Assembly: GCF_900100335.1 (NCBI RefSeq)
Contig: NZ_FNFE01000001.1
Location: 248,001-312,000 of the forward strand
Direction of reading: 5' to 3'
DNA length: 64,000 nt
DNA from: Natronorubrum texcoconense
GTDB taxonomy: Archaea; Halobacteriota; Halobacteria; Halobacteriales; Natrialbaceae
The notes under the pieces were generated by a model. The model was not told the origin of the DNA, did not search any database, and was given only the letters and a program-made list of their open reading frames with translations. Both the position numbers and the translations under genes were made by a program. Below, piece after piece: positions 53,550 through 60,185 of this stretch. Each line of letters starts with the position of its first letter. Positions within the stretch are counted from its first letter, which is position 1.

Positions 53550-53939
53550 ATGAACTCGAGCAGTGAGGCCCTCGAGGCGGCCTGTCAGGCGCTCGAAGGC
53601 GTCTACGACGACGTCGACGGGGCCGTTGCCGGGCTCGAGGACCGACGGCCGGTTGACGGCCGGACCGAGACGCAGGTGACCGTCTTCGGCGCGCTCGCGA
53701 ACGACCACCGGGTCCGCATCCTCGAGGCCCTTCGAGACGGCGAACTGTGTGCCTGTGAGCTGCAGGTCGTCCTCGAGGCTCCCCAGTCGACCGTCGCGAC
53801 GCATCTCCGAACGCTCCGGGATGCGGGACTAATCGCGGGCCGCAAGAAGGGGAAGTGGACCTACTACCGAATCACCGACACGGCGGTCTTCGAACTGCTC
53901 GATCTGGGGGCTGCCGTGGACGTCCCGGCGGACGACTGA
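53550..53939 (+). CDS. arsR: ArsR family metalloregulator
   Basis: A 129-aa winged-helix repressor. ELCACELQ in helix 3 (Cys67, Cys69) is the As(III)-binding motif, without the third Cys of Escherichia coli ArsR; Cys12 might supply a third ligand. STVATHLRTLRDAGLIAGRK is the recognition helix and wing. It is followed after 33 nt by the arsenite methyltransferase gene. A TTATAT box lies at 53463. Confidence 0.88.
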   Translation: MNSSSEALEAACQALEGVYDDVDGAVAGLEDRRPVDGRTETQVTVFGALANDHRVRILEALRDGELCACELQVVLEAPQSTVATHLRTLRDAGLIAGRKKGKWTYYRITDTAVFELLDLGAAVDVPADD

Positions 53940-53972
53940 TCGCGATAGCGAACGCCGACTCGTACTCCACCC

Positions 53973-54743
53973 ATGACGACGAACGAATCACCCGACGACG
54001 ACGCGACGACCGACCAGCGAACGCACGTCCGCGAGACGTACGGCGACATCGCAGCGACCGGCGACGGTTGTTGCGGAAACTCCGACGCCGAGATAGCGGC
54101 CGATCCCGACCGTACGCTCTCGCTCGGCTACGACGCCGACGACCTCGAGGAGGCTCCTGACGAGTCGAACCTCGGACTCGGCTGTGGCAATCCGGTCGCG
54201 ATTTCGAATCTCGAGCCCGGCGAGACGGTGCTCGACCTCGGTTCCGGCGGTGGCTTCGACTGTTTCCTCGCGGCCCGCGAGGTCGGCCCCGACGGGCGTG
54301 TTATCGGGGTCGACATGACGCCGGAGATGCTCGAGCGCGCTCGCGAGAACGCGGCCGACAGCGATCACGAAACCGTCGAGTTTCGACTCGGCGAGATCGA
54401 ACACCTGCCCGTCGCGGACGCGGCCGTCGACACGATCATCTCGAACTGCGTCGTCAACCTCTCGCCCGACAAGCGGCGGGTGCTCGCGGAGGCCTACCGC
54501 GTCCTGCGGCCCGGCGGCACGCTCGCGATTTCGGATCTCGTCGCGACCGAGCCGTTGCCCGACGAAATCCGGGACGATCCCGATGCCGTCGACGCCTGCG
54601 TCGGCGGCGCTGCCACGATCGACCAACTGGAAGTGTGGCTCGCCGACGTGGGCTTTACCGACGGTTCGATCACTGTCGAAGGCGAGTGGACCGACGACCT
54701 ACCGATCGTCTCCGCGCGAATCGAGGCGAAAAAACCGACCTAG
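53973..54743 (+). CDS. arsM: Arsenite methyltransferase
   Basis: A 256-aa SAM-dependent methyltransferase. Conserved Cys appear in DGCCGN (Cys33/34), GLGCGNP (Cys71), [13 protein letters not shown] (Cys159) and DACVGGA (Cys209), the pattern that binds As(III). [12 protein letters not shown] is the SAM site. It turns arsenite into methylated, partly volatile arsenicals using SAM and thiols. It forms an operon with arsR. Confidence 0.93.
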
Positions 54744-57421: not shown

Positions 57422-59041
57422 CTACCGCGAGGTCGGTTCCCCGTTTCCGATCGTCTGCGTCGAGGGATTCGCAGTCGATACCACCTCCGGATCGACGCCG
57501 TCGGCCGTTCGCGGTTCGGGGAGTTCGTACCCGGTTTCGGTCGCGTAACGCTCGAGATGGGTGTTCAACTCGCCGGCCTGTTCGGTCAGGATCGTCGCGC
57601 TGTGGGCCACGTGAGAGAGGGCAACAGCCTGTGCGGCCGCACGCCGGGCGGCCCTGGCCGACATCGTCGCGGTGCCGTCGCTCGTTTCCGCGGCGTCCTC
57701 GACGATGGCGACGACCTCCTCGGTCGCCGAAGCCTGTTGTTGGGTCGCCGCGGAGATCTCCTGAACGCCGTCGTTCGTTTGCTCGGCAAGGCCGGCGATC
57801 CGCTCGAGCGCGCTCGCCGCGTGCTCGACGTCGTCGACGCTGTCCTCGATGCGGTCGCGGCTGGTTCGAACCTCGTCGGCGGCCGAGATAGCCCGTGTTC
57901 GAAGCTGCTCGAGGCGGTCTTCGACCGACTGGACCGAGTCGTAGACCTCCTCGGAGAGGGTCTGGATCTCGTTGGCGACGGCACCGAACCCCTGGTCGGC
58001 GCTGTCAGCGGATCGAGAGGCCTCGATGTTGGCGTTGAGCGCCAGCATGTTCGTCTGCTCGGCGATATTGCTGATCGATTCGATGAGGTCGTCGATTTGC
58101 TCGGCTTCCGCCTCGAGCTGCTCGATCTCCTCGAGGGTCCGTTCGGTTTCCGTATCGATCACGTCCATCCCTTCGATCGCGTCGCTGGCGGCGCGCTCTC
58201 CTTCCTGTCCGACTCTGGCAGTTCTGTCCGCCCTGTCGGCGACTTCGGAGGCCGTCGCGGCGATTTCCTCGATCGTCGTCGAGAACGTCTGCATCTCGGT
58301 CGAGACGGTTCGAAGCTGTTCGTGCTGGGCCTCGTTCGTCTCGGCGATGTCGGAGAGCGTCTCGCTCGCGCGGTCACCCTCGGCTCGAACCGTCTCCATA
58401 CTCGTGTTGAGCTCGTGGCTGTAGGTGACGACCTCGCCGGAGAACGACTTCAGCGTCGCGAACGTGTCCTCGATCTCGGCCAGCATCGCGTTGGAGTTAT
58501 CGGCCAGTTCGTCGACCGCGTCGTGGGCTCCGGGCTGACCGAACCGCTGGGTGAGGTCGCCATCGGCGACCGACTGCGTCGTTTTCGCGTGTGACTCGAC
58601 CATCGACTCGAGTTCGGTCAACGACCGATCGGTCCGTTCGCCCCGCGCGAGGCGGTCGCGGACCGACGCGAGCGAGCGCTCGAGTCGTTCGAGTTCGTCG
58701 TCTCGCTCGGTGACGAACGAGACGTCGTGGTCGCCCGCCTCGAGACGGACTGCGCGATCGGATACGTCGTCGATCGCCTCCCGCAGGTCGTCGCGCTGGC
58801 GCGGTGCGGTTCGCCCGTCCGATACCGCAGCGATCGCCGCGGCAGCCAGCCCAGCGGTGACGACGCCACCGACGGCGACGCCGAATACGGCCGGTGTTAG
58901 TTGGTCGAGTGCAACTGCACCGACGCCGACACCGGCCAGACCGACGAGCGTGACGACGATTCCGAAGCCGATCGGCCGCTGAGACTGCATCGCGCTCGGA
59001 ACCCTCGACTGACGGTCGCCGGCCGTTGCGGGCTCAGTCAT
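57422..59041 (-). CDS. Methyl-accepting chemotaxis protein
   Basis: A 539-aa chemoreceptor. Two transmembrane helices (about residues 24-44 and 52-73) are joined by a very short loop, so there is no external sensor. A HAMP-like region is followed by a long coiled coil with the signalling hairpin IAEQTNMLALNANIEASRS (about 326-344). The ATG at 59041 lies inside the H-NOX gene's last codons (8-nt overlap). The input is therefore most likely the H-NOX protein. No che genes are nearby. Confidence 0.92.
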   Translation of the reverse strand: MTEPATAGDRQSRVPSAMQSQRPIGFGIVVTLVGLAGVGVGAVALDQLTPAVFGVAVGGVVTAGLAAAAIAAVSDGRTAPRQRDDLREAIDDVSDRAVRLEAGDHDVSFVTERDDELERLERSLASVRDRLARGERTDRSLTELESMVESHAKTTQSVADGDLTQRFGQPGAHDAVDELADNSNAMLAEIEDTFATLKSFSGEVVTYSHELNTSMETVRAEGDRASETLSDIAETNEAQHEQLRTVSTEMQTFSTTIEEIAATASEVADRADRTARVGQEGERAASDAIEGMDVIDTETERTLEEIEQLEAEAEQIDDLIESISNIAEQTNMLALNANIEASRSADSADQGFGAVANEIQTLSEEVYDSVQSVEDRLEQLRTRAISAADEVRTSRDRIEDSVDDVEHAASALERIAGLAEQTNDGVQEISAATQQQASATEEVVAIVEDAAETSDGTATMSARAARRAAAQAVALSHVAHSATILTEQAGELNTHLERYATETGYELPEPRTADGVDPEVVSTANPSTQTIGNGEPTSR

Positions 59042-59666
59042 CTGACCCTCCGCTCGCGGGCTCGGTCGTCGACTCGGGGTCGCCGAACTGGAACGTCGCC
59101 TCCGTGTCGCTTGCGGATGTCGCAGAGCTAGTTCGTCGAATATCGAATCGACAGGCATCGTCACCTTCGTGCATGCACGTCTGCTCTTCGGCGACCAGCT
59201 CTTCGTCGAACTGCGCCGCAACGCCCTGAATCGCCCCGCGCGCGACGTCACACAGTTTCCGGTCGGAATCGTACGTGATCCGAACATGGTGGTCGCCGAT
59301 TCGCTCCGATCGAATCCGCGGCGTCGTCAGCGTCGTCATATCTCGGGTTCGCAACGACGTGTGAAACTGCTGGATATTCGCGATGAGCTCGAGTCCGCTC
59401 CACTCGTCGTCGATGTGGAGATCGTAGGTCTCGAGCAGCGCCGGAACGACCCACTTCCCGTACTGGCTCAAGACCGTTCGCGGGCTCTGATCGGTCAGTT
59501 CGCCTGCGGTTCGGACGATCTCGTACACGTCGCCGTCCGGATAAACGGTGACGGGCACGTAGACTTTCTCTTCGATGTCCGCTTCGCGCTGGATCGTCAG
59601 CCAGGCGTCCTCGCCGTACGTATCCACCACGAACGCCTGTAGCGTCTTCAGAATAATGCCGTGCAT
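59034..59666 (-). CDS. H-NOX haem gas sensor
   Basis: A 210-aa haem-NO/O2-binding protein. MHGIILKTLQAFVVDTYGED is the family start. The proximal haem ligand is His102 (QQFHTSLR), and the haem-carboxylate motif Y-x-S-x-R is Tyr132/Ser134/Arg136. The distal-pocket Tyr140 used by O2-binding members has no counterpart (Asp140/Val141), which predicts an NO-selective sensor. Cys139, Cys164 and Cys172 match three ligands of the structural zinc site of bacterial H-NOX. It overlaps the MCP gene downstream. GGGGGA precedes the ATG. Confidence 0.9.
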   Translation of the reverse strand: MHGIILKTLQAFVVDTYGEDAWLTIQREADIEEKVYVPVTVYPDGDVYEIVRTAGELTDQSPRTVLSQYGKWVVPALLETYDLHIDDEWSGLELIANIQQFHTSLRTRDMTTLTTPRIRSERIGDHHVRITYDSDRKLCDVARGAIQGVAAQFDEELVAEEQTCMHEGDDACRFDIRRTSSATSASDTEATFQFGDPESTTEPASGGSDD

Positions 59667-60185
59667 TCGGTCCCCCGTTCTGCCCCGAGATGGTCTGTCG
59701 CCCCTGAGTTATCATATCTCACGATTGTATTACTCTACCAGTAGTGGTCCTTAGCGGTTCACCCTGCACTGTTGGGTAGTTCCGGTCGTCGACGGTGACA
59801 TGGCTACTCGCTCGAGTGCGGCGAGCGATGGTTTCTGGGACGAGGGGAGGTTAGCAAACCCTATACCGATATACAAAATCGCCGAGGCCGACGACTCGTC
59901 GGCCATATCGCGGTACGACTCGAGTGCCGCGTGGTCCGAGCCGTAGTACGTTGCCGTAACTCACGAGCGTCGTGTCCGCGCCCGTTTGGACCACTCGTTC
60001 GGTGTTCCCAGCAATGACCGTCCCGAGGCTGTCGTCGTCGACGGTGCCGCCGTCGAACGAGGTCGCGAGTGGAACGCCAGCGCCATGCAGGAACGCTCGT
60101 GGGGAGGTCGAAGCTACCGGTCGGATACTCGCGACGGATTCGCGACGACGAAACTGTTTTGAACTGTCACGTGGCTGTGGTGGGT
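59667..60185. other. Intergenic region with degenerate gene
   Basis: A 519-nt gap between the H-NOX gene and the GNAT. Near 59700-59740 it is AT-rich and probably holds the H-NOX promoter. From 59835 to 60110 there is a decayed coding fragment on the minus strand (see next entry). Confidence 0.5.
59835..60105 (-). pseudogene. Degenerate coding fragment
   Basis: On the minus strand two frames read protein-like segments in order: LHGAGVPLATSFDGGTVDDD then LGTVIAGNTERVVQTGAD, and, after a phase change near 59950, TYYGSDHAALESYRDMADES then SASAILYIGIGFAN. This fits one gene broken by a frameshift. There is no start or full length. Family not recognised. Confidence 0.4.

Follow-up and report, generated by a model that had tools for sequence, protein, structure and literature searches.

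The H-NOX gene and its chemoreceptor partner

The window analysed here is a stretch of 64,000 nucleotides from Natronorubrum texcoconense, in which two overlapping genes encode a putative haem sensor of the H-NOX (HNOB) family, P0001, and a methyl-accepting chemotaxis protein (MCP), P0002 (Table 1). The preliminary description of this DNA reported an 8-nt overlap between the genes and named the residues His102, Tyr132/Ser134/Arg136, and Cys139/164/172 of the sensor; the overlap was found in the sequence as described, and every one of the residues lies at the number given.

Table 1. Features of the H-NOX–MCP locus and of the His-less HNOB clade (positions refer to the window unless a locus is named)
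Feature	Position	Strand	Remarks
H-NOX (HNOB) haem sensor gene, P0001	59034-59666	-	210 aa; Pfam, PDB matches, AlphaFold
Methyl-accepting chemotaxis protein (transducer), P0002	57422-59041	-	539 aa; MCPsignal E 2.3e-27
8-nt overlap ATGACTGA, H-NOX stop and MCP start	59034-59041	-	Sequence (read 59041-59034)
His102, predicted proximal haem ligand	59361-59363	-	Aligned with proximal His of Nostoc H-NOX
Tyr132-x-Ser134-x-Arg136, haem propionate motif	59259-59273	-	Invariant in 31-sequence archaeal alignment
Cys139/164/172, zinc/redox site of So/Vc type	59151-59252	-	Sequence; motif per PMC12329717
Val141, position of O2-stabilising distal Tyr140 of Tt H-NOX (Met144 in Nostoc)	59244-59246	-	Alignment to 4iae
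Two TM helices, residues 27-45 and 55-73	58823-58963	-	Hydropathy scan; coordinates approximate
Receptor hairpin tip QTNMLALNANIEASR, CheA/CheW-binding region	58013-58057	-	Most conserved block, 96%
C-terminal tail GYELPEPR (consensus GY[DE]LPE[AP]R), candidate docking motif	57509-57532	-	Conservation
CCCAACAGTGCAGGG element upstream of H-NOX	59762-59776	-	Many relatives have a similar element; no other exact copy in genome
His-less HNOB clade	L002:1441-1980 (G000:C11:14878-15354)		72 other loci in L079-L157

The HNOB assignment of P0001, which the preliminary description had left to a profile search, was borne out by a match to PF07700 (E 2.3e-33, residues 2-159) that scores 115.8 bits against a curated cut-off of 25.5 and covers positions 1-161 of the 163 in the profile. 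Among solved structures, the S. oneidensis (So) H-NOX is the closest in sequence (1.9e-14), together with other bacterial H-NOX proteins, and human guanylate cyclase beta-1 is a lower-ranked match. It is also the closest in fold: the AlphaFold model of P0001 alone, obtained from an alignment of 31 archaeal sequences (mean pLDDT 83.7), adopts the H-NOX fold and superimposes on the crystal structure 4u99 of this protein with Z 23.4 and rmsd 2.4 over 183 residues. The acidic tail from about residue 180 is modelled with low confidence and is probably disordered. His102, the YxSxR motif, G70, P116, and G144 do not vary across the 31 archaeal sequences. The full-domain profile match, the proximal His with YxSxR, and the predicted fold identify P0001, as judged from sequence and model, as an H-NOX protein with ligand residues of the haem type, for which haem binding itself is predicted. 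The zinc site, defined for H-NOX by three Cys and His/Gln at position 161, is present in part, with all three Cys and a Glu at 161 in place of the fourth ligand. A V4R match (PF02830, 1.9e-9, residues 128-177) also scores above its gathering cut-off.

P0002 carries the MCP signalling domain (PF00015) at residues 284-451, and its hairpin tip is canonical and intact, as expected of an MCP. The claim that this receptor has two helices and no external domain agrees with the hydropathy scan, since the loop between the helices is only about 9 residues long. Conservation in the N-terminal membrane part is among the lowest in the protein, with 64-76% per block vs 96% at the tip. HAMP domains are suspected and not claimed, the matches being sub-threshold (E 0.06). 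The longest ATG reading frame of P0002 begins at 59287, within the H-NOX gene; relatives conserve the start at 59041 instead. In two loci from another genus of the family (L080 and L082), the MCP has no TM helices and yet keeps both the overlap with the H-NOX gene and the C-terminal tail, and therefore the signal must enter these receptors from the cytoplasm. The tail motif was found in all 20 complete MCPs of the P0002 clade, the TM-less ones included, and in none of the four other MCPs of the genome, which may suggest it as a candidate docking site for H-NOX. At L084:4539-5324, the H-NOX gene is followed, with the 8-nt overlap retained, by a shortened MCP-like protein with a HAMP-like part and a coiled coil and without the hairpin tip.

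The genome contains one CheA and five MCPs, and its che operon has the order cheW-cheY-cheB-cheA-cheC-cheC-cheD-cheR; no second Che system was seen in it. Besides P0002, three MCPs each possess a large N-terminal region flanked by hydrophobic segments, and the fourth is HemAT, encoded apart from the H-NOX pair and carrying a protoglobin domain (E 2e-30), by which O2 sensing is, as predicted from this domain, already served. Upstream of the H-NOX gene, CCCAACANTGNAGGG was considered as a regulon signal and rejected, since the genome contains it exactly only once and its one-mismatch matches are about as frequent as those of a control. Elsewhere in the window, at 53550-54743, there is a gene for an ArsR-type regulator followed by one for a methyltransferase resembling arsenite methyltransferase.

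Conservation of the pair and other archaeal H-NOX lineages

The survey of gene order in other haloarchaea, proposed with the preliminary description, was made with PF07700 in 391 Halobacteria genomes, 85 of which gave matches (117 HNOB proteins, with 4 kb fetched on each side), and the pairing recurs. The proximal His is present in 44 of the 117 proteins. An MCP is encoded near 35 of these 44 and near only one of the 73 His-less proteins (Fisher p ~3e-20, uncorrected for phylogeny); in this sole exception, L081, one gene sits between the two. Of 41 loci that encode a His-bearing H-NOX, 32 also encode an MCP no more than 4 kb away, against an expectation of about 2 if every genome had as many as 20 MCPs; together with the overlaps and the joint presence or absence of the genes, this rules out chance adjacency. 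In 25 of the 32 pairs, the genes overlap by 4 or 8 nt. This count takes in three pairs in which the first start listed is at -29 and an in-frame start is available at -8; the remaining pairs are separated by gaps of 120-194 nt (six) or 619 nt (one). In Natronorubrum and Natrinema, H-NOX and the MCP orthologue are both present in 17 genomes, both absent from 12, and split in none, with one further genome interrupted by a contig end and shared ancestry uncorrected. The orthologue shows at least 69% identity and more than 690 bits in the 17 genomes; the best MCP in the 12 genomes without H-NOX reaches at most 46% identity. The haem-sensor/chemoreceptor gene pair is thus a real, conserved unit, retained or missing as a whole in Natronorubrum and Natrinema.

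On the H-NOX tree, which was built of archaeal sequences, the presence of an MCP requires five changes, at least two of them forced by well supported branches. For nine His-bearing H-NOX proteins, one of them at a contig edge, the 4 kb on either side contain no MCP gene, and therefore other outputs exist. No natural H-NOX–MCP fusion was found among the fetched haloarchaeal loci. Three loci have the tandem order H-NOX–H-NOX–MCP (L044:3782-5114, L046:3989-5174, and L071:3986-5240), with haem residues in both copies, which come from different branches of the tree. On a plasmid of Natrinema salinisoli (L066:3998-5655), a haem-type H-NOX gene overlaps a gene for a PNPOx-domain protein, and no MCP lies in the fetched 4 kb.

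The machinery that such a receptor would need generally accompanies the pair, as CheA was found in 31 of the 32 pair-bearing genomes vs 314 of 391 overall. The one pair-bearing genome without a CheA match, G182, has a completeness of 94% and comes from a genus where this domain is hardly detected. The H-NOX fold, the ligand residues, the conserved overlap, the joint presence and absence, and the complete che system together uphold the earlier view that this H-NOX is functionally tied to the chemoreceptor.

Distant H-NOX genes were also found inside che operons of Halobacteriota outside Halobacteria (family f16: L158, L160, L162, L163, L164, and L165), in mostly small and fragmented assemblies. 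The order in L158 is MCP-cheW-cheY-cheX/C-cheB-HNOX-cheA, and cheA is present in several of the f16 loci. These H-NOX proteins form a clade of their own (100% support), with the proximal His present and the distal Tyr and the Cys site absent. Considered together with the haloarchaeal pair, they link H-NOX to chemotaxis in at least two archaeal lineages.

The His-less HNOB proteins also form one clade with 100% support (24 sampled). In 68 of the 73, a gene for ribose-phosphate pyrophosphokinase (PRPP synthetase), with the domain confirmed, lies directly upstream on the same strand. Tyr is the commonest residue at the position of the proximal His, and most members keep YxSxR or YxTxR and the three Cys, so the three-Cys site probably has a use in the absence of haem. 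The copy in this genome was modelled and retains the H-NOX fold, with Z 23.0 to 4u9b. The clade gives the impression of an H-NOX form that works without haem, perhaps as a redox sensor, in connection with the supply of nucleotide precursors.

Ligand and output of the putative receptor

It is fairly probable, in our judgement, that the H-NOX and the MCP form a two-protein gas receptor, most likely for NO, which steers swimming. Under this model, the soluble H-NOX would bind haem in the cytoplasm through His102, and a diatomic ligand, most likely NO, would change its shape. H-NOX would then touch the MCP directly on its cytoplasmic side, perhaps at the conserved C-terminal tail, and so act on it. 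The MCP, which has no ligand domain of its own and would merely be anchored in the membrane by its two helices, would set the activity of CheA, and through the usual Che pathway of archaea the swimming bias. We infer haem occupancy, NO as the ligand, the direct contact of H-NOX with the MCP, and taxis as the output. Whether, more broadly, the Tyr-less H-NOX acts in the cytoplasm as a separable ligand-binding subunit for an archaeal chemoreceptor, with NO (or nitrosative/oxidant) taxis occurring in Archaea, seems to us evenly balanced.

NO is favoured as the diatomic ligand by the absence of the distal Tyr, the mark of NO-type H-NOX (PMC12329717), but a Trp nearby (Trp72) and the Cys site, which could sense oxidants, call for caution. 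Position 141 is occupied by V, I, L, F, or W in the archaeal set. This position also weighs against a reading in which the pair is a receptor for O2 (or CO) and mediates aerotaxis, as is thought for the Tyr-bearing H-NOX–MCP fusions of strict anaerobes. The bacterial H-NOX proteins known to be linked to MCPs are of the O2 type (PMC12329717), and a distal hydrogen bond could be donated by Trp72, which aligns with Nostoc W74, or by the Tyr72 that replaces it in L080 and L082; however, P0001 has Val at 141, Tyr was found there in 0 of 31 archaeal sequences, and the genome encodes HemAT as a dedicated globin O2 receptor, which together leave aerotaxis through this pair quite improbable. A more serious rival is a redox or oxidant receptor, in which the MCP would be informed when Cys139/164/172 (the zinc site) or the haem iron become oxidised, for flight from oxidants such as hypohalites or peroxide, NO not being the physiological signal. 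Cc H-NOX is Tyr-less and binds NO without being activated, and only oxidation of its zinc-site Cys switches it; there is precedent for such sensing in both Vc and Cc H-NOX (PMC12329717), and it is this precedent, together with the near-invariance of the three Cys in the haloarchaeal set, that gives the rival its weight. Most of the His-less sister clade retains these Cys, and reactive halogen species may confront a halophile. On the other hand, the MCP-linked proteins show no variation in His102, YxSxR, or the haem-pocket Pro and Gly, so that haem is selected for in this set, and the fourth zinc ligand position, 161, holds Glu rather than His/Gln; we therefore consider an oxidant receptor possible and on balance unlikely.

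The output might also be other than swimming, with the MCP acting on pili, biofilm, or another Che-linked process. In bacteria, Tyr-less H-NOX proteins chiefly control biofilm and quorum sensing (PMC12329717, PMC8846402), but the single CheA of this genome is encoded beside cheY, cheB, cheC, cheD, and cheR, and such an output appears very improbable.

Returning to NO taxis, the preliminary reading of this locus stood in so far as a haem-type H-NOX is tied to an MCP; NO is a probable rather than an established ligand, and the suggestion that it comes, perhaps, from denitrification was not supported by the survey as a general link. nirK was found in 20-21 of the 32 pair-bearing genomes vs 208 of 391 (p 0.2-0.36) and, above the cut-off, is absent from 11-12 of the 32. 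The genome of N. texcoconense itself has a match to the Cu nitrite reductase (nirK, E 2e-105) and none to the quinol-NOR domain PF22085, a profile that was positive in a Haloferax control. Denitrification as the source of NO is thus possible in this genome and no general rule. The molybdate transporter MOT1, a conserved neighbour in 17 loci, was dropped as a hint of nitrate respiration; an AIR-synthase-like neighbour shows about the same degree of conservation (16 loci), and the conservation of MOT1 is therefore plain synteny.

Comparison with known systems

In keeping with the preliminary description, no characterised archaeal H-NOX–MCP pair came to light: the open-access literature that was searched contained no paper on such a pair or on H-NOX in haloarchaeal chemotaxis. 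It contained no characterised NO sensing by an archaeal H-NOX either, this having been worked out in animals and bacteria. In this salt-loving archaeon, a relative of the human receptor for nitric oxide is paired as sensor with a receptor of the swimming-control type. The pair is conserved and co-inherited in culturable Natrinema and Natronorubrum, and archaeal NO or oxidant taxis is therefore directly testable.

The three-Cys cluster of P0001 is shared with V4R, MetOD1, and MsvR domains, and MetOD1 was described as similar to both HNOB and V4R (PMC5847659). P0001 differs from them in its full-length HNOB domain and its haem residues, the V4R match being confined to the C-terminal third. HemAT is a cytoplasmic haem gas receptor, as is proposed for the H-NOX pair, but with the sensor fused rather than unfused. 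In layout, the pair resembles SRII-HtrII, a haloarchaeal gene pair of a sensor and a two-helix transducer feeding CheA; the sensor is a rhodopsin there and a soluble H-NOX here.

Among bacterial systems, So H-NOX/HnoK and the H-NOX proteins of V. cholerae and Legionella (Hnox1) are like P0001 in being Tyr-less, in possessing Cys139/164/172, and in being encoded by a separate gene beside the output partner. They differ in the zinc site, which has His/Gln at 161 where P0001 has Glu, and in the partner, which is a histidine kinase or c-di-GMP enzyme in bacteria and an MCP in N. texcoconense. The Tyr-less H-NOX proteins of facultative anaerobes respond to NO via kinases or c-di-GMP enzymes, and the Tyr-bearing ones, found in strict anaerobes, occur as MCP fusions and have O2 as their ligand (PMC12329717). 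The archaeal pair departs from the first rule and, with a Tyr-less H-NOX, an MCP output, and separate genes, is by its predicted features outside both groups. The predicted wiring of Tyr-less H-NOX to chemotaxis recurs across several haloarchaeal lineages and also, separately, in the che operons of the f16 Halobacteriota. Tt H-NOX, recovered as a relative of P0001 by both sequence and fold, and the Clostridium SONO MCP fusions of strict anaerobes have the same H-NOX fold, haem ligands, and MCP output; they consist of one protein with a distal Tyr of the O2 type, whereas the archaeal pair consists of two overlapping genes with Val141. The pair can thus be regarded as a natural split form of the H-NOX–MCP fusion, and as such it offers a route to study how the signal is transferred from H-NOX to the receptor.
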